A DNA stretch of 64,000 nucleotides, from assembly GCF_024345855.1 (NCBI RefSeq), contig NZ_JAGQBX010000001.1:1-64000 (forward strand), given 5' to 3'. The notes below the pieces were generated by a model, which was not told where the DNA came from, searched no databases, and worked only from the letters and a program-made list of their open reading frames with translations. The position numbers and the translations under genes were made by a program. This DNA is from Synechococcus sp. GreenBA-s (GTDB taxonomy: Bacteria > Cyanobacteriota > Cyanobacteriia > PCC-6307 > Cyanobiaceae). Positions 13,905-26,843 of the stretch are shown piece after piece. Positions within the stretch are counted from its first letter, which is position 1; the number at the start of each line of letters is the position of its first letter.

Positions 13905-14309
13905 TCAGTGTTGGTGTGTGGACTGTTGTGTTGGATGCTCTGAGCACGGCATCCAGAGATCGCCCATGGCGTGCACGCCTTCGCAGCCGAGCTCACGGGC
14001 CTTCTGAAGGGCCATCTGCCGGCTCGGGTAGGCCAGTAGCTGTTGCTGCGCAGCCCCGTTGCTGTGGTGTTGATGACCGCTGCCTGGGCTGATTGTCCAG
14101 ATCCCCATGGCATGGAAACCGGCCACCACCACCCCCATCCCCACCACGCAGGCATTGAGCACACCCATGCCCACCACCCCGATGCTGATGACCCCCATCG
14201 GCACCACGCCGATGCTCACCACCCCCATCGGCACGATGCCGATCGAGATGATGCCGAGCGGTGCCACCCCGAAGGCGATCCGCTTGGGCTTGTCGCCGCA
14301 ATGGGCCAT
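13905..14309 (-). CDS. DUF3721 protein with glycine-methionine hydrophobic repeats
   Basis: The 134-residue protein starts MAHCGDKPKRIAFGVAPLG. It then has about nine short units of the form GVV(S/P)(I/M)G across residues about 13-62 (GIISIGIVPMGVVSIGVVPMG), likely one or two membrane-spanning stretches or a small beta-solenoid. The C-terminus is a DUF3721 domain (YPSRQMALQKARELGCEGVHAMGDLWMPC), as in its upstream neighbour. The repeats are also visible as a DNA periodicity of about 36 nt. The role is unknown. The genes neighbour a MerR regulator and share orientation, with a gap of 14 nt. Confidence 0.75.
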   Translation of the reverse strand: MAHCGDKPKRIAFGVAPLGIISIGIVPMGVVSIGVVPMGVISIGVVGMGVLNACVVGMGVVVAGFHAMGIWTISPGSGHQHHSNGAAQQQLLAYPSRQMALQKARELGCEGVHAMGDLWMPCSEHPTQQSTHQH

Positions 14310-14323
14310 GGGAGTGCTCGGCT

Positions 14324-14593
14324 TCAGTGGGAGGGCTTGGAGCCTTGGCCATCACCGTGCTTGGCGCACGGCATCCACTGATCGCCCATCTTGTGGGCGC
14401 CGCTGCAGTTGAAGTGCAGCTTGCCGGCCTTCTCCGCTTCTGCCTGGGTCGGGTAGAGAGCGGGAACGCCACCTGAACCGGCGGCAGGAGCGGCCAGGCC
14501 AGCGGCGGAAAGCAGGATGTTGGCGCCGATCGTGGCTGCCGCCCGGGCTGCCCAGGGATGGGGGAGGAGCGACATGGGAAGGGGCGTGCGCAT
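14324..14593 (-). CDS. Exported DUF3721 protein
   Basis: The 89-residue protein has an N-terminal signal (AARAAATIGANILLSAAGLAAPAAG) and then the DUF3721 core: ALYPTQAEAEKAGKLHFNCSGAHKMGDQWMPCAKH, with two conserved Cys and His residues. An internal ATG at 14575 gives a cleaner signal peptide and may be the true start. DUF3721 is common in cyanobacteria and has no settled function. The Cys/His/Met pattern would suit metal binding. Site B (14624-14652) lies 30 bp upstream. Confidence 0.8.
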   Translation of the reverse strand: MRTPLPMSLLPHPWAARAAATIGANILLSAAGLAAPAAGSGGVPALYPTQAEAEKAGKLHFNCSGAHKMGDQWMPCAKHGDGQGSKPSH

Positions 14594-14623
14594 AGGGCCT
14601 GCTGGATGGCCACCCTAACGGAT

Positions 14624-14652
14624 GTCTCCAGTCATGCACGACTGGTGGAGAG
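14624..14652. promoter_or_regulatory. 29-bp dyad (site B) between DUF3721 and merR-like gene
   Basis: Arms GTCTCCA (14624-14630) and TGGAGAG (14646-14652) lie 15 bp apart, the same spacing as site A. An inner pair, CCAGTC/GACTGG (14628-14633 and 14640-14645), adds symmetry. Read on the minus strand it is followed by TTAGGG near 14613-14618, a possible -10 region for the DUF3721 gene. The MerR-type gene begins 72 bp to the right, making this a plausible divergent control site. Confidence 0.55.
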
Positions 14653-14690
14653 TGATGGGAGGTCGACTCGCGGCCTGGCCTGTCTAGTGT

Positions 14691-14703
14691 TGGAAAGTTT
14701 CCA
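14691..14703. promoter_or_regulatory. Palindrome TGGAAAGTTTCCA upstream of the merR-like gene
   Basis: A 13-bp perfect palindrome ends 20 nt before the TTG start at 14724, just before a good Shine-Dalgarno run (GAGGG, 14711-14715). It may be an autoregulatory operator. It differs from the CTCCA/TGGAG sites elsewhere in the window. Confidence 0.4.
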
Positions 14704-14723
14704 CCCAGTAGAGGGTTCTTGCC

Positions 14724-15134
14724 TTGGCCCGCCAGGGATCTGTGTCAGCGAAACCCGCTCCCAGCCTGCGCATTGGCGAGGTGGCTAGGCGCACTGGCCT
14801 GCCGGTGAAGACGATCCGCTATTACTGCGATGAGGGATTGCTCCAGCCCAGGGCTCGCTCCGAATCTGGGTACAGATTGTTTGACGAAGAGAATCTCGCT
14901 GAGCTGACGATCATTCGCTCCCTGCGGGCGATGGATGTATCGATTCCCGAGTTGGTGAGGATCCTGGAGGTGCGGCGAGCTGGTGTCTGCAACTGCTCTG
15001 TTCTGAAAGACAGCATTGCGGCCAAGGTGGACTCCATCAACCTGCGCATCGATGAGCTGGCCGCCATGAAGGATGAGCTGGCTCGTCTGCTGAACAGCTG
15101 GCAGGACTGCGGTGGCTCCAAGGCCGACGACTGA
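14724..15134 (+). CDS. MerR-family metal-responsive transcription regulator
   Basis: This 136-residue protein has the MerR winged helix (LRIGEVARRTGLPVKTIRYYCDEGLL ... SGYRLFDEENLAELTIIRSL) and a dimerisation helix. A CxC pair (GVCNCSVLKDSI) sits at the start of that helix, and one more Cys is near the C-terminus (WQDCGG). This places metal ligands much as in the MerR/ZntR/CueR group, although the usual C-terminal CPxx loop is shortened. TTG at 14724 is chosen because GAGGG lies 8 nt upstream. GTG at 14742 is the alternative. It is divergent from the DUF3721 genes and is the best candidate to bind the operators at 19172-19196 and 26129-26152. Confidence 0.88.
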   Translation: MARQGSVSAKPAPSLRIGEVARRTGLPVKTIRYYCDEGLLQPRARSESGYRLFDEENLAELTIIRSLRAMDVSIPELVRILEVRRAGVCNCSVLKDSIAAKVDSINLRIDELAAMKDELARLLNSWQDCGGSKADD

Positions 15135-17246: not shown

Positions 17247-17499
17247 CGAGCCGCGAGATTTGGCCCCATGGCCTATGGCCGGTGAGCACCAGGGGATGGA
17301 CCTCCTCTCTTTCCAGCGCGTTATCTGACTTCACTGTGGAGGATTGAGCTGGTGCCCCACATCCAGCCGCACCAACAGGATCGCCCCAAAAGACCAAGGA
17401 TGCAGCTTCCCCACACTGGGCTCAGGCCTCAATTGGGGTTCCCCCGATTCCGTTGACAGGTCAGGAAGGGTCACGCCATGACCACCAGACTGTCCATCG

Positions 17500-17895
17500 A
17501 TGACGAACCCGACCAAGAGCCGCCGCCGGTTCACCGCCCAGCAGAAGCAGGAGGCGATTGACCTCTGCCTGCAGGAGGGCCTCTCCTGTAATGCCGTCGC
17601 TGAGCAGCTGGGCCTTCCCTCCAGCAGCCTGGCGCGCTGGGTGCGCCAGGCACGCAACTCCTTCGGAGAAGGCTGCGCCTACGATCGCGGACAGGCCGGT
17701 CTCAGGGACCAGGGCCTGCTCACCAGTGAGGAGCGCGCCGAGCTCAACCGGCTCCGCAAGGAGAACCGCGAGCTGCGGAGGGAGAAGGATTTTTTCAAGC
17801 TGGCGGCAGCGCACTTTGCCCTAGCCCGAAGGGCTTCCGCTTGCGGTAGGAGCAGCTGCCGCCGAGAGGTTTCGCCTGATCGAGGAGCTCGCTGA
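17500..17895 (+). CDS. IS3-family OrfA
   Basis: The homologous part is MTNPTKSRRRFTAQQKQEAIDLCLQEGLSCNAVAEQLGLPSSSLARWVRQ, a Tnp_1 helix-turn-helix. It is followed by a leucine-zipper helix (ELNRLRKENRELRREKDFFKLAAAHFA). The last 20 or so residues are past the usual frameshift region. The 131 residues are slightly longer than most OrfA proteins. By family, it yields the OrfAB transposase through a -1 shift near the zipper end. Confidence 0.88.
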   Translation: MTNPTKSRRRFTAQQKQEAIDLCLQEGLSCNAVAEQLGLPSSSLARWVRQARNSFGEGCAYDRGQAGLRDQGLLTSEERAELNRLRKENRELRREKDFFKLAAAHFALARRASACGRSSCRREVSPDRGAR

Positions 17896-17905
17896 TCAGC
17901 ACGGG

Positions 17906-18772
17906 GTGTCCTGGCTGAGCCGTCAGCTGGGGGTGACACGAAGCGGCTACAACGCCTGGCGGCAGCGCCAGGATTCATCGGGACAGCGTGCGGCTGAGAA
18001 CGCCCGACTGACCGCTGAGATCCAGGCCGTCTTCCAGCAACACCGTGGCTTCTACGGATCGCCGCGGATCCACCAGGAGCTGCGTGCTGCCGGCCATCCG
18101 GTGGGTCGTCACCGGGTCGCCCGCCTCATGCAGCGGGCTCAGCTCAAGGCCAGGAGCCGCAGGCCTTTCAGGCTCTACTCCAGGGCAACCAAGGGGGCGG
18201 CTGGGGTGGTGGAGAACCTGTTGCAGCAGGACTTCTAGCCGCCTGCCCCGAACCGTTGCTGGGCCGGTGACATCACCTACATCCGGACGTCGGCAGGCTG
18301 GCGGTATCTGGCCGTCTGGATCGATCTGTTCAGCCGCCGCGTAGTCGGCTGGAAGCTCGATGGGCGTATGGATGCCGCCCTGGTGATCGAGGCCCTCAAC
18401 CGGGCGCTCGGGCATCGCCAGGTGGGGCCTGAGACGCTGCTTCTCCACACGGACCAGGGGAGCCAGTACCGGGCGACCGACTACCGCGATCTGCTCCGGC
18501 AGCACCAGTTGTCCTGCAGCATGTCGGCCAAGGGCTGCTGCGGGGACAACGCCGTGGTGGAGAGCTTCTTCTCCACCCTGAAGCTGGAACTGGAGCTCGA
18601 CGACAACCGTAGGGAGCTGATCAGTCCGCAACAGCTCCAGCACGATCTCGCCTTCTGGATCGAGGGCTACTACAACCGCGAGAGGCGCCATTCAACGATC
18701 GGCTACCTCAGCCCGATCGGCTACGAGCAGCAGTTCATTGCAGCCCGTACACTCCCCTCCGTGACCACCTGA
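17906..18772 (+). pseudogene. IS3-family OrfB with an in-frame amber stop
   Basis: The frame reads RFRLIEELADQHGVSWLSRQLGVTRSGYNAWRQR and the IS3 HTH_21 region (HRGFYGSPRIHQELRAAGHPVGRHRVARLM). It meets TAG at 18236-18238 after LLQQDF. The same frame resumes with PPAPNRCWAGDITYIRTSAGWRYLAV (first Asp), LLHTDQGSQY (second Asp) and DNAVVESFFSTLKLEL (Glu), ending at TGA 18772. All catalytic residues are present, so a single substitution (for example CAG to TAG) inactivated it. Coordinates start at a GTG, but real translation would begin upstream by frameshifting from orfA. Confidence 0.88.
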
Positions 18773-18906
18773 TCGGTGTCAACGGAATCGGGGGAACCCC
18801 AATAGGCCTTGATGCCATCGGGATAGACGTGCAGCACCAGGGTGCGGCTCTCGCAGCAGGGAGCGGAGGGGAGGGCCATGGAAGCAGCGGCTGACTCGAA
18901 ACTCCT

Positions 18907-18932
18907 GGGGCCGCTGCAGCGGCCCCCTTTTT
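18907..18932 (+). terminator. Intrinsic terminator between the IS3 element and the metallothionein-like gene
   Basis: A perfect 20-bp GC palindrome (18907-18926, centre CTGCAG) is followed on the plus strand by CTTTTTGG. It would stop plus-strand transcripts leaving the IS. On the minus strand it lies 25 nt after the metallothionein-like stop and could also protect that mRNA's 3' end, though without a U-run. Confidence 0.7.
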
Positions 18933-18950: not shown

Positions 18951-19097
18951 TCAGCCCTGCCGGTCGCTGCGCTCGGCGGCGCAGCTGCAACCACAGTCGC
19001 AGGCACCGCCGCTGGTGCAGGCACAGGTGTTGGTGCAACCGCAGCCGCAGGGGCAGGCGGCGGGCTGGGTGAGGGGAGTGGAACAGGTGCAGGTCAT
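18951..19097 (-). CDS. Small all-CxC metallothionein-like protein
   Basis: The ATG at 19097 opens a 48-residue protein with 12 cysteines, at 3, 5, 15, 17, 19, 21, 25, 27, 33, 35, 37 and 39, every one within a CxC motif (CTC, CPCGCGC, CAC, CDCGCSC). There is no aromatic residue and no histidine, unlike SmtA/BmtA metallothioneins, so it is not that family. AGGA lies 9-12 nt upstream of the ATG. A MerR-type operator-promoter lies about 75-100 nt upstream (19172-19196). The composition and the operator together argue for a thiolate metal chelator, copper(I) or zinc, in the cytosol. The overlapping frames on this strand are shadows. Confidence 0.72.
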   Translation of the reverse strand: MTCTCSTPLTQPAACPCGCGCTNTCACTSGGACDCGCSCAAERSDRQG

Positions 19098-19171
19098 GGT
19101 GATTGTCCTGGTTGGGGATGGTCTGGGGGATTGCGAGCGGGGCCTCAGCCCCGCCCACAACCCAACCATGC

Positions 19172-19196
19172 ACCCTCCAGTCGAGTGGAGAGTCAA
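19172..19196 (-). promoter_or_regulatory. MerR-type operator-promoter of the metallothionein-like gene
   Basis: The 22-bp dyad has arms ACCCTCCA (19172-19179) and TGGAGAGT (19186-19193) separated by 6 bp. Read on the minus strand, TTGACT (19196-19191) is a consensus -35 that runs into the dyad. A -10-like CATGGT lies about 20 nt further on. This is the layout of ZntR/CueR-controlled promoters, where the regulator binds between -35 and -10 across a long spacer. Confidence 0.68.
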
Positions 19197-20258: not shown

Positions 20259-23021
20259 TCAGGTATTGGCCTGGTTCCGGCGGCGCCAGAGACGCCAGAG
20301 TTTGTCCAGCTCGAGGTAGAGGAAGAACACGAGGCTGAACCCAACGCAGACCAGCAGATCATGGAGGGCCAGGGGGGTGGTGCCGAAGAAGGTCGAGAGC
20401 GCTGGAACGTAGAGCAGCAGCATCTGGAGGCCGCTGGTCAGCACCACAGCCCAGATCAGCCAGGGGTTGGAGAAGGGGGGCACCTGGAACAGGGGCTTGT
20501 CGCTGCGGGCGGACAGAGCGTGTCCCATCTGGGCCAGGCAGAGGGTGGTGAACACCATGGTCTGCCAGGGGGCGCCGGTGCGGGCGGCGTAGAGCATCAT
20601 CACGATCGTGATCGCGGCGAACACCACACCAACGCGCAGGATGTAGCGGCCGATTCCACGGGCAAAGATCGATTCACCCGGGCGGGCCGGAGGGCGTTGC
20701 ATCAAGCCGTCCTCCCCTGGTTCCAGGGCCAGGGCCAGGGCCGGCACCCCGTCGGTCACCAGGTTCATCCAGAGGATCTGCAGGGGCGTGAGCGGCACAC
20801 CCATCAGTCCCACCAGGGGAGCGGCGGCGATGGTGATCAGCTCACCCACATTGCTGCCGAGGATGTACTTCACGAAGCGGCGGATGTTGGCATACACCAG
20901 CCGGCCCTCCTCCACCGCGCTCACGATCGTGGCGAAGTTGTCGTCGAGCAGCACCATGTCGGCGGCCTCCTTGCTCACCTCGGTGCCGGTGATGCCCATG
21001 GCCACGCCGATGTGGGCCTGCTTCAGGGCCGGGGCGTCGTTGACGCCGTCGCCGGTCATCGCCACCACCTGGCCATTGGCCTGCAGGGCCTTGACGATGC
21101 GAAGCTTCTGTTCGGGGGCCACCCGGGCGTAGACGCTGCAGCGCGCCACTGCCTCCCGCAGGGCCGGCTCCTCCATGGCTTCCAGCTCCCGGCCGAGGAT
21201 CACCTCGCCATCGCTGGTGGTGAGGCCGATGGTGGTGCCGATGGCGCGGGCGGTGAGGGGGTGATCGCCGGTGATCATCACCGGACGGATGCCGGCCTCG
21301 CGGCAGGTGGCCACGGCCTCGGTCACCTCGGGTCTGGCGGGATCCAGCTGGGCCATGAGGCCCAGCAGCACCTGCTGCTCGAGCTCCCGCTCCGGGCTGG
21401 GATGGTGGGGCGCGCAGGCGAACGCCAACACGCGCAGTCCGCTGGCGGCCAGCTGTCGGGCCTGCTCGATCCACCACTGGCGCTGCTCGGAGCTGAGCGC
21501 CGTCACCCCTGAGCCGTCGATCCAGCGGTCGCAGCTGGCGATGATCACTTCAGGCGCACCTTTGCTGATCAGCAGCCGCTGGGATCCGGCCGCGGTGGGG
21601 CCCAGGGGGGTCTGGAGCTGTCCGTGGGGATCGTCGATCCACACGGCCATCAGCTGGCGTTCGGAGCTGAAGGGAATCTCGGCAGCCCGTTGGAAATGGC
21701 TGCGCAGTTCGAAATCGTCGATGCCGTCCTTCTCGGCCACCACCGAGAGGGCCCCCTCGGTGGGATCCCCGAGGATCTCCCAGGTGCCATCGGCGTCCTG
21801 GCGCAGTTCGGCGTCGCTGCAGAGCACGGCGGCCTGAAGCAGCAGGCGCTGCAGACCCTCGGGGCTGCCCGCCGTGGCCCCCGGAGGAGGCGTGAGGGGG
21901 CTGGCACTGAAGGAGCCGTGGGGCACATAGCCCTGGCCGCCCACGGCCACGCTGGTGGTGCCGAGCCGCAGCTCCTGCACCACCTGACGGTTCTGGGTGA
22001 GGGTGCCGGTCTTGTCGGAGCAGATCACGGTGACCGAGCCCAGGCCCTCCACCGCCGGCAGACGCCGGATCAGGGCGGCGCGGCGCACCATCCGCTGGGT
22101 GCCGATCGCCAGGGTCACAGTGATCACCGCCGGCAGGCCCTCGGGAACGATGGCCACCGCCATCGACAGCGACACCTCCAGCAGGTTGAGCAGCGGCTGA
22201 CCCAGGAGCCAGCCCAGCAGCACCACCAGGGCCACCAGAGCCAGGGCGCTGCCCACCAGCACCTTGGCCAGGCCGTCAAGCCGCTCCTGCAGGGGGGTGC
22301 TCTCGCCGCCGGCGGTGTTGATCAGTTCGGCGATCTGACCCAGTTCGGTGGCCATGCCGGTGGCGCTCACCACGGCCACACCGCGGCCCCGCACCACCTC
22401 GGTGCCCTGGAACAGGCAGTTCAGGCGCTCCATCACGGGAGTAGCAGGCTCCAGCAGGAGCTCCGGCCGCTTGAACACCGCCTCGGTCTCGCCGGTGAGG
22501 GCGGCCTCGCGCACCCCCAGATCCGCCGCCTCCAGCAGACGCGCATCCGCGGGCACCCGGTCGCCGGCCTCCAGGCGGATTAGGTCACCCGGCACCAGCA
22601 GTTCGCTGCTGAAGCGCTGCCAGGTGCCGTCGCGGCGCACCTGCACCAGGGGCTGGGCCATGTTGCGCAGGGCGAGCAGGGCCTGCTGGGCCTTGCTTTC
22701 CTGCAGATAGCCGAGGAGGCCATTGAGCACCACGATCACCAGGATCGCGATCGCATCCTTGGGGAATTCCTGCTGGTGGACGGACACCGCCGCCGAGACG
22801 GCCGCGACCGCCAGCAGCATGATCAGCATCACATTGCTGAACTGATCCCAGAGGATCTGCAGGTTGCTGCGGCCTGCCGCCAGTTCGATGCGGTTGGGCC
22901 CCGTGTCCGCCAGTCGACGGGCAGAGTCCGCCGTGGTGAGGCCTTCCCTGCTGGCCTGAAGCTGCTGAAGGCAGTCCTCAGGGCTGAGGGCATACCAGGG
23001 GCTGGAAGCGGGTCGCGACAA
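20259..23021 (-). CDS. Type II P-type cation ATPase (PacL/SERCA-like)
   Basis: This 920-residue pump shows all expected parts: N-terminal cation-ATPase domain, TGET actuator loop (176-179), PEGLP in helix M4 (293-297), phosphorylation site CSDKTGTLT (Asp336) and hinge [22 protein letters not shown]. Six C-terminal helices begin at [21 protein letters not shown]. The M4 PEGLP and absence of CPC argue for calcium or manganese rather than copper. Start TTG at 23021 is the longest reasonable start, and [21 protein letters not shown] fits the family N-terminus. The downstream dedA gene abuts. Confidence 0.94.
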
Positions 23022-24064: not shown

Positions 24065-24436
24065 TCACTCCTCCTCGTCGCTGCCGCCGGCGGGGACAAG
24101 GCGGATCTGCTTCTTGCCCAGCTTGATCTCGAATTCATCGCCGGGCTTGAGGTCCAGCAGGGCGGTGTAGGCCTTGCCCACCAGCAGGTTGCCGTTGAAC
24201 TGCACCTTGGCCACATAGCTCAGGGAGCGGCCCCCTTTGCCCTTGCCCTTACCACCGGTCTCGCCAAGGCTGACGCCCTTGGCCTCCAGCAGCGCCTCAT
24301 AGAAGGCGGTGAAGTTCAGGCGCTCGCTGCCGTCCTTCTTGGTGCTCACGTAGCCGGCGGCCCGCACCAGATCGGACTTGGAGGCATCGCCGAGCTCCTT
24401 GACCTTGGCCAGCAGATCAGATCCAGTGAGTGCCAT
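24065..24436 (-). CDS. Cyanobacterial AbrB-type regulator, copy 1
   Basis: The ATG at 24436 gives a 123-residue protein starting MALTGSDLLAKVKELGDASKSDLVRAAGYVS. A basic Gly-Lys linker (GGKGKGKGG) leads to a C-terminal AbrB-like swapped-hairpin domain (LLVGKAYTALLDLKPGDEFEIKLGKKQIRL) and an acidic tail. cyAbrB proteins are global regulators of carbon/nitrogen metabolism and stress in cyanobacteria. A nearly identical copy lies at 55938-56309. The longer open frame to 24490 has no family support. Confidence 0.92.
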   Translation of the reverse strand: MALTGSDLLAKVKELGDASKSDLVRAAGYVSTKKDGSERLNFTAFYEALLEAKGVSLGETGGKGKGKGGRSLSYVAKVQFNGNLLVGKAYTALLDLKPGDEFEIKLGKKQIRLVPAGGSDEEE

Positions 24437-25223
24437 GCGTGGGAATGGAAGTGGACACAACCTACACAGGAAACGGCCAACCGCAAGCACGAGAGGTGTG
24501 GTTTGCGGTCATCTCGGCGCGGCAGACTTTCCCAGGCCCTGCCATCTCCTAAGCCCCGGTGGTGGTATGGCCCTGGCGACAGAGTTCCCGGACGTGGGCA
24601 TCGGAGCTGACCCTGCCGCAGCGATAGCCGCGGCCACGGACTGGGGTCGAGGTGCTACCGGCGGATTGCCCCAGGTCACGATGGGCGACGGGCGCGGATT
24701 CGGGCCGCGCCCCTCCATCCAGCGGGCGACACTGTCAGCGGTCGCAGCGAGCCACCACCCGCTCGGCATCGGCGCCGGGCTCAATGGCCAGGCCCGCCAG
24801 GTGAACCACCGGCTGCGGGGCGGCTTCAGCCAGGAGGGATCCGAGGCTCTGGGCCGCCGGCCTTGCGGCGAAGGCCTGCGGCTGCAGCAGCCTGCAAAGC
24901 CAATCCCCCGCAGGAGAGCACTGCGGGGGATTCGAATCGACGGCTGCACCGTCACCCGGTAGAGAACCAGGCGTCAGGGAGAGAACAAGGAGGAGATGGC
25001 GCTCACACCCGCCACTCCTGAACGGAGTTGGACCTGCACCAAGGGCATCACCTCGGGGACCCATCAACGGACTGGAGGGAAGTTGGGGGGCCTGCCTTCC
25101 CTCAACTTCAAGATAAGCGTCTCTGACGTCTGGGACGGGGCTGGAGCGGTCCCATTCCCGCCCCTCGCACGGCGGTTTGCCCCACGTCTCCCCCAGCCCG
25201 TGGTCTGGCCCCATCCCATGGCG
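24437..25223. other. Mostly non-coding stretch with a possible minus-strand gene
   Basis: No confident gene. A minus-strand frame 24735-25064 (MGPRGDALGAGPTPFRSGG ... QSLGSLLAEAAPQPVVHLAGLAIEPGADAERVVARCDR) has a protein-like C-terminal half but no recognised family. The hairpin at 24902-24932 lies inside it, which speaks against coding. Confidence 0.3.
24902..24932. repeat. Strong 12-bp-stem hairpin
   Basis: Arms AATCCCCCGCAG (24902-24913) and CTGCGGGGGATT (24921-24932) pair perfectly around a 7-nt loop. No U-run follows. It may be a bidirectional terminator-like or REP-like structure. Confidence 0.6.
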
Positions 25224-25358
25224 CTAACGCCGCAGGCCTTCCTGCTGGGGCCGGCCGCTGGAGATCAGCAGGCCGATGCCCGACAGGATCACCACCAGCG
25301 TGAGCAGCACCAGTCTGGCCAGCTCGTCCACCGCTCGGATCCCCGTCATGGCGGCCAT
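25224..25358 (-). CDS. 44-residue single-helix membrane protein coupled to DUF305
   Basis: The sequence MAAMTGIRAVDELARLVLLTLVVILSGIGLLISSGRPQQEGLRR has one clear membrane helix and a basic tail. The start codon shares its first base with the stop of the DUF305 gene (TGATG at 25358), a standard coupling arrangement that supports it being real. No family is recognised. It may anchor or partner the DUF305 protein. Confidence 0.6.
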   Translation of the reverse strand: MAAMTGIRAVDELARLVLLTLVVILSGIGLLISSGRPQQEGLRR

Positions 25359-26092
25359 CAGGAGGAAAAGAGGGCGTCGTAGCGGTAGTACTCCGGCTTG
25401 TTGAGACCATCGCGCTGGAGCATGCGCCGCAGCTCGAGGATCTCGCGGCGCTGGGCCACGATGATCTGCCGCGCCAGCCGCCGAATGGTGGTGTTGGTGG
25501 AGTTCCGCAGCGCATCGTGGGCCATCTCCAGGGCGCCACCGTGGTGGGCGAGCATCCCCTCCAGGAACCAGGTGACGCGGTTGGCCCTGGTGGGGGTGCT
25601 GCCGGTCATGCGCATGGCCGCGATCTGGGCGGGGCCCATGCGCTCCAGGCCGGCCAGGCTGTTGGGATCCCCACCGGGCTTCAGGGCCACGGGATAGACG
25701 GGCGCCTCCGGATACCAGGCCCTGCGCCATTGCCCCATGGCCTTGATCTCCTGGGCCTGGTCACGCCAGATGGCCTTGGCCAGCGCCCCCACCCCCGGCT
25801 GGCCGATGTCGAACACCACCTCGCTCATCCGCAGCGCACCGGTGTGGTGCTGCACCATCGCGTCGATCCAGCGCAGGTCGTAGGTGGTGCCGGCGGCGCC
25901 CAGCCCATGGCCATGGGCGCTGTGATCCATCGATCCAGCGGCCGACTGCGGCGTTGCGGTTGCCGGCGCCATGGACGGCGGGCTGTGGTGCTGGTGGTGC
26001 GGGTCGTGCGCGGGGGACGGGGCCTGAACCTGGGCCCGGGCCATCGGCACCAGCAGGCCCACCAGGGCGAGAGTCGCCAGGACAGGACGCAT
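25358..26092 (-). CDS. Exported DUF305 protein, His-rich
   Basis: This 244-residue protein has a signal (VLATLALVGLLVPMARA) and a His/Pro/Met linker (HDPHHQHHSPPSM ... MDHSAHGHG), then two DUF305 halves: WIDAMVQHHTGALRMSE and WFLEGMLAHHGGALEMAHDAL. Each carries the HHxGAxxM pattern that resembles a metal-binding ferritin-like helix. DUF305 proteins often sit with copper-resistance genes and are periplasmic. A MerR-type operator at 26129-26152 precedes it by about 37 bp. Confidence 0.88.
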   Translation of the reverse strand: MRPVLATLALVGLLVPMARAQVQAPSPAHDPHHQHHSPPSMAPATATPQSAAGSMDHSAHGHGLGAAGTTYDLRWIDAMVQHHTGALRMSEVVFDIGQPGVGALAKAIWRDQAQEIKAMGQWRRAWYPEAPVYPVALKPGGDPNSLAGLERMGPAQIAAMRMTGSTPTRANRVTWFLEGMLAHHGGALEMAHDALRNSTNTTIRRLARQIIVAQRREILELRRMLQRDGLNKPEYYRYDALFSS

Positions 26093-26128
26093 CGCGAACA
26101 GGTGGAGGAGAAACCAGCCCTACCCTGC

Positions 26129-26152
26129 AGCCTCCTGTAGGTGGAGAGTCAA
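26129..26152 (-). promoter_or_regulatory. MerR-type operator-promoter of the His-rich DUF305 gene
   Basis: Dyad arms AGCCTCC (26129-26135) and GGAGAGT (26143-26149) have one mismatch. Read on the minus strand, TTGACT (26152-26147) overlaps the dyad, just as at 19172-19196, and the shared run TTGACTCTCCAC is identical at both loci. The start codon lies at 26092. The -10 box is weak (CAGGGT at 19 nt), as is usual for activator-dependent promoters. Confidence 0.65.
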
Positions 26153-26180
26153 GGGGTGGCGGGGCCGGTCCGCACGTCGT

Positions 26181-26843
26181 TCAGGAGCCGTACCACTGGC
26201 GATACCACTGCTCCATCTGCTCCATCTCCTGGCTCTGCACCCGCACCATGGCGGCCTGCAGGCTGCGCAGCTCGGGATGCCGGGTATTCCACTGGGCGTG
26301 GGAGGCCATCATCACGCCCATGCGGTGATGGGGAATCATCTGCTCGATGAAGGCGCGATCGAAATCGGGCGCGGCCTTCAGGGCCTCCAGGCTGGTGGCC
26401 ATGCCCGGCATGCCCGAGCCCCGGCCCATGCCCCAGCCCATGCCGGAACCCGCCCCCATGCCCATCCCCATGGCTGATCCAGGCCCGCCCAGGGTCCACG
26501 CCGGCACAGCGGTGCCATACCACTGGCGGTACCAGCGGCGCATCTGGGCATTTTCCTCGCTCTGACTGGCCTTGATCCGCTGGGCCAGGGCCTGGATCTC
26601 AGGCCGCTTGGCCCGGGTGAGCGCCAGATCGGCCATCGCGATCGCCCCATCGTGGTGGGGAATCATCATCACGATGAAGCGCTGATCGGCCATCCCCATC
26701 GGCAGGCCCAGCGCCCCCGGCCCCGGGCCCAGCGCCGGTGCGGGAGCCGCCCAGGCAGCGGGCGGCATCAGGGCTGAACTGCTCAGCAACCCGGCGGTGA
26801 TGGCCGCCGCCCAGCTCCAGCGATGCATCTCCCCAATCGCCAT
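26181..26843 (-). CDS. Exported Met-rich DUF305 protein
   Basis: The 220-residue protein follows a strong AGGAGG ribosome site. After a signal peptide (AAAITAGLLSSSALMPPAAWA) there are two DUF305 units: RFIVMMIPHHDGAIAMADLAL and AFIEQMIPHHRMGVMMASHA. Each ends in the repeat MRRWYRQWYG / MEQWYRQWYG. A Met/Gly-rich linker (GSAMGMGMGAGSGMGWGMG) lies between them and suits copper(I) binding. It is likely periplasmic and probably in one run with the flanking minus-strand genes. Confidence 0.88.
   Translation of the reverse strand: MAIGEMHRWSWAAAITAGLLSSSALMPPAAWAAPAPALGPGPGALGLPMGMADQRFIVMMIPHHDGAIAMADLALTRAKRPEIQALAQRIKASQSEENAQMRRWYRQWYGTAVPAWTLGGPGSAMGMGMGAGSGMGWGMGRGSGMPGMATSLEALKAAPDFDRAFIEQMIPHHRMGVMMASHAQWNTRHPELRSLQAAMVRVQSQEMEQMEQWYRQWYGS

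Follow-up and report, generated by a model that had tools for sequence, protein, structure and literature searches.

A putative new family of short cyanobacterial metallothioneins behind a predicted MerR-type promoter

Few families of bacterial metallothioneins are known, and short cysteine-rich open reading frames tend to escape automated annotation. The characterised metallothioneins of cyanobacteria are, in the studied cases, mostly controlled by repressors of the SmtB/ArsR type (PMC8790569). Promoters of MerR-family regulators typically have spacers of 19-20 bp (PMC4486848), and a survey of their binding sites places the centre of 21-bp sites 7 bp, and that of 22-bp sites 8 bp, from the -35 hexamer (PMC5045206). 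The locus described here lies in a stretch of 64,000 nucleotides from Synechococcus sp. GreenBA-s, referred to as the window.

On the minus strand of the window, positions 18951-19097 encode a protein of 48 residues, MTCTCSTPLTQPAACPCGCGCTNTCACTSGGACDCGCSCAAERSDRQG, with 12 Cys that all stand in CxC runs (positions 3,5 / 15,17,19,21 / 25,27 / 33,35,37,39), and this translation agrees with the original prediction. Metallothioneins are recognised here by their low mass, a Cys share of about 20% or more, CxC motifs and few aromatic residues; this protein is 25% Cys and contains no H, F, W or Y. The predicted lack of His and aromatic residues holds for this protein, but not across its family, where W or Y occur in some relatives and His in a second subgroup. 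The gene is the only open reading frame of up to 60 residues with at least nine Cys in the window, no such frame arose in 60 windows resampled with an order-2 Markov model, and the Cys content of the protein is far beyond chance. A possible ribosome-binding site, AGGA (19106-19109, minus strand), can be read 8 nt before the ATG, and the copies in V. limneticus have GGAG at this place. As no obvious signal peptide is present, the protein would be cytoplasmic. A terminator-like, perfect 20-bp palindrome, likewise read from the sequence, follows the gene at 18907-18926 with a T-run on the plus strand only, and a similar palindrome follows a second gene copy in the same genome.

The neighbourhood also holds an IS3-family element (17433-18802), whose inverted ends of about 26 bp match and whose second frame is broken by a stop near 18236. 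The small gene that this element interrupts has its intact counterpart next to the second copy (L034 4675-5028). Several of the metallothionein genes have an AbrB-like gene at a distance of about 1-5 kb (L034 5183-5608, L035 2624-3049, L068, L070, and 24065-24490 in the window, where it belongs to PF14250).

The family comprises 12 loci in two subgroups, and its known distribution is narrow, with nine genomes. The type-1 members include the second copy, which is 83% identical to the window protein, two copies in Vulcanococcus limneticus LL of the same genus (G006; 83% and 73% identity), and intact members found by profile search in G276, G322, G327 and G352, which all belong to one second genus of the bacterial family, by inference probably Cyanobium. 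Type 2 has the core CxCGCGC...CxC....CxC and occurs in a His-bearing form in G386 and G347; a third member without His, in G292, was reached through its promoter. At L160, a type-2 gene has a MerR gene some 0.5 kb away. A search of 386 genomes of the phylum found no member outside the bacterial family, and plasmid and phage collections queried with the protein, viral contigs queried with three alignments, and solved structures compared with the family profile all gave zero matches. Weak matches in relatives, among them G010:C269 (L037) and G292:C37 (L056), were dropped, since neither a Cys-rich frame of this pattern nor the dyad described below was found there.

The original prediction had named a lack of homologues with preserved Cys as a reason to discard it; such homologues exist in two genera. 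Cys are their most conserved residues: when the eight intact type-1 proteins are aligned, 10 of 12 Cys columns show no variation, as compared to 7 of 36 other columns (Fisher p = 1.4e-4), and the columns without variation in the 11-member alignment comprise Met1, ten Cys, two Gly and one Pro. Across the four Vulcanococcus copies, Cys codons show synonymous changes only, except for one C3W, by which Cys3 is lost in one V. limneticus copy. In one G276 copy (L069 7152-7289, G276:C54), an in-frame TGA replaces a Cys codon that is TGC in the paralogue; this copy has probably decayed. Substitution rates are mildly below the neutral expectation for these short sequences, both between the two copies of the window's genome (dN/dS 0.076/0.203) and in the codon rates of the four Vulcanococcus copies. 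With sequences this short and rates only mildly below 1, purifying selection is argued from the conservation of Cys and promoter and not from the rates.

The promoter region of the gene follows the geometry of MerR-regulated sites. A -35 hexamer, TTGACT (19191-19196, minus strand), is overlapped by a predicted 22-bp operator dyad, ACTCTCCACTCGACTGGAGGGT (19172-19193, minus strand), which is symmetric at 9 of 11 positions and reads into the -35 box, exactly at the place and on the strand first proposed. Counted on the sequence, 8 bp separate the centre of the dyad from the 3' end of the -35 hexamer, as the rule for 22-bp sites has it (PMC5045206). The predicted -10 hexamer, CATGGT (19165-19170, minus strand), stands 20 bp from the -35 hexamer. 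The proposed MerR-type arrangement recurs throughout the family: all 12 loci have a 22-bp dyad, a 20-bp spacer and a -10 hexamer of the form xAxxxT, with A2 and T6 kept at 12 of 12, and these hexamers are poor when compared with the consensus. Ten of the loci came from the original prediction or from protein similarity and two were met through the promoter, so that the promoter is an independent check for nine of the ten.

The promoter sequence is also rare. When up to 3 mismatches are allowed, TTGACTCTCCACTCGACTGGAGGGTGCA has a single occurrence in the window and none in 100 shuffles, and in the whole 2.85-Mb genome it lies solely upstream of the gene and its second copy. A scan of 400 genomes of the bacterial family with the operator pattern returned seven sites only, namely those of the four Vulcanococcus genes, of one relative in G276, of a DUF305 gene (G292) and of a DUF411 gene (G013). 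When paired copies are compared, identity is near random upstream, reaches 17-20 of 20 positions at the dyad and stays high through the leader within a genus.

The predicted leader RNA would begin with a 16-bp stem-loop (19128-19163, minus strand; z -2.85), for which a function may be supposed. Stems of different sequence stand at the same place in relatives (L068, L069, L071, L072), for example GGGAGAG/CTCTCCC and GGGGGAG/CTCCCCC. Such a hairpin, together with a low dN/dS in an antisense frame too, could be taken to mean that the reading frame is a by-product of GC-rich repeats and that the conserved promoter in fact serves to make a structured RNA or the product of another frame. We regard this as very improbable: relatives of only 50-67% identity align in the sense frame, differ in length by whole codons and keep their Cys, the start codon and the region of the ribosome-binding site are kept among the copies, and the window contains no Rfam match.

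The family is, by its sequence, distinct from SmtA. None of the 11 aligned members has a match in Pfam or NCBIfam, and none matches PF02069 at E values up to 1, while an SmtA-type control does so with 43.9 bits. A comparison by hhalign with SmtA-type proteins of the same genera gave a probability of 1.5% over 4 columns, so that the resemblance to SmtA/BmtA denied by the original prediction was not found by either route. A divergent SmtA/BmtA that had lost its zinc-finger part would likewise be short, Cys-rich and present in these genera, but this origin is hardly credible given these comparisons, the presence of both types together in G322, and the absence of such a dyad upstream of those SmtA-type genes that were inspected, among them genes near the MerR gene discussed next. 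No PF02069 gene was found in the window's genome, and no SmtA in G000, G006, G276, G327 and G352.

The search for MerR genes in the genome yielded only two, MerR-A in the window (14724-15134, plus strand) and MerR-B on contig C78, and both are candidate regulators. Each of the six genomes that carry type-1 genes has a MerR-A of at least 85% identity, and 24 of 400 genomes of the bacterial family have one of at least 79%; shared ancestry inflates the link with type-1 genes. No dyad identical to the operator of the gene lies beside either MerR gene. A conserved linkage between the gene and MerR-A was considered and rejected, as the two lie within 5 kb of each other in the window only, and the constant neighbours of MerR-A are two DUF3721 genes. 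These run divergently from it on the minus strand (14327-14593, kept with MerR-A in about 20 loci, and 13908-14309, the second gene of the same unit) and form a conserved unit with it (14327-15134; L140, L145 and L151 among the about 20 loci). Half-sites TCTCCA and TGGAGRGT recur between MerR-A and the DUF3721 genes, with a spacing that is longer by roughly one helical turn. In G276, MerR-B and a DUF305-like gene point away from each other, and a dyad with perfect half-sites lies between them.

The metal that would act on the promoter may be approached through possible regulon partners. Two tandem DUF305 genes lie at 25358-26843 (minus strand) with a MerR-type promoter of the 21-bp class between them (TTGACTCTCCACCTACAGGAGGCTG, 26128-26152, minus strand, 19-bp spacer); this related dyad stands upstream of the gene at 25358-26092 (minus strand), which encodes a CopM-like protein. 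Dyads of the 21-bp class are also found in front of DUF305 and DUF411 genes in relatives; the promoters of DUF305, DUF411 and the MerR-B gene of G276 follow the 21-bp rule and those of the metallothionein genes the 22-bp rule. CopM of Synechocystis is a copper-binding resistance protein with two DUF305 domains (PMC4335983), and the CopM-like partner therefore points to copper.

The features of the regulators point to divalent ions. MerR-A has, in an alignment, a Cys at or beside the place of Ser77 in CueR, and its top match among solved structures is CadR; MerR-B has the matching CxC and is taken to carry a Cys at the same place. The rule applied here, with Ser77 in CueR and Cys in sensors of divalent ions, is one that we take from the CueR/ZntR literature. 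The metallothionein could thus be induced by divalent metals (Cd, Pb, Hg, Zn) and serve these instead of copper, as a functional counterpart of SmtA under an activator like ZntR or CadR. This narrower reading, nested within the one that we prefer, is possible, and we lean somewhat against it. It would fit the 22-bp class of the operator with its 20-bp spacer, as in ZntR promoters, the SmtA-type genes that lie 1.6-1.9 kb from MerR-A in three other genomes (G190, G312, G288; L140, L141, L147), and the lack of an SmtA-type gene of the window's genome itself. However, DUF305 and DUF411, the regulon-like partners, are associated with copper, His is missing from the protein, and thioneins built of CxC alone suit Cu(I). 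The family models do not separate the two classes, as MerR-A scores 77 bits with the NCBIfam model of CueR (cut-off 147), 72 bits with that of ZntR (168) and 76 bits with that of CadR (151), below the cut-off in each case. Our best guess from these features is an inducer among the soft metals, which could be Cu(I)/Ag(I) or Cd/Hg/Pb, and a role that is not primarily zinc storage.

The protein most likely acts as a metallothionein, to judge from its composition and conserved Cys. A role other than that of a detoxifying sink, as a thiol buffer or metallochaperone passing metal on to an exporter or enzyme, would be compatible with the small size and the inducible type of promoter, yet we consider it unlikely: a single CxxC site or a fold like those of CopZ/Atx1 is missing, the arrangement of 12 Cys in CxC runs speaks for a cluster, and no exporter is adjacent. 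The nearby P-type ATPase (20259-23021) was considered as a heavy-metal exporter and rejected, since it belongs to the Ca2+ class, type IIA.

We thus think it likely that these genes represent a new family of short metallothioneins, absent from the curated libraries searched and activated by a MerR-type protein in response to a soft or thiophilic metal. The suggestion of an undescribed short family, first made for the window protein, gains support from the homologues, the missing Pfam and NCBIfam matches and the shared promoter. We infer metal binding and metal induction of the family, as well as the activation mechanism, the acting MerR protein and the inducing metal, from sequence features. 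In the resting cell, the metal-free activator would sit on the 22-bp dyad in the over-long 20-bp spacer and hold the promoter off. Loading of the activator with a thiophilic metal ion would untwist the spacer, which could allow the sigma-70 RNA polymerase to begin transcription, and the protein then made would wrap the excess metal in a thiolate cluster.

A family tied to an activator-type metal promoter could represent a testable second way for cyanobacteria to make metallothionein. It would also offer a natural, His-free thionein of CxC pairs only for comparison with SmtA, and the combined signature of dyad and CxC provides a route to further members. A broader proposal, on which we are evenly divided, is that a metallothionein family with CxC-only and His-bearing branches arose independently in the Cyanobium/Vulcanococcus lineage, is switched on by MerR-type activation and not by SmtB-type derepression, and shares a soft-metal regulon with DUF305/CopM-like proteins in genomes most of which lack SmtA.

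Among the known systems, promoters of MerR-type metal regulators (zntA/ZntR, copA/CueR and those of cyanobacterial heavy-metal MerR proteins) share with this one the dyad within a 19-20 bp spacer, as well as the distance of 8 bp between the centre of a 22-bp site and the -35 hexamer (PMC5045206), but the target here is a metallothionein. In the literature searched, with most subscription papers outside its scope, we found no published bacterial metallothionein under MerR control. MymT, the Cu(I) metallothionein of Mycobacterium tuberculosis, is also a short, Cys-rich bacterial protein (4.9 kDa), but comes from a different phylum; its Cys layout presumably differs, as does its control, which we take to be of the CsoR/RicR type. 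Fungal copper thioneins such as Neurospora MT are likewise dominated by CxC and have few or no aromatic residues and His; unlike the family described here, they are shorter and eukaryotic. SmtA and BmtA (PF02069) come from the same genera and are also small, Cys-rich cyanobacterial proteins with CxC pairs. They differ in that the members of PF02069 contain His, possess a hydrophobic core and have no sequence match to the new family, and in that repressors control them in the studied cases (PMC8790569), whereas the promoters found here are of the MerR-type activator kind.
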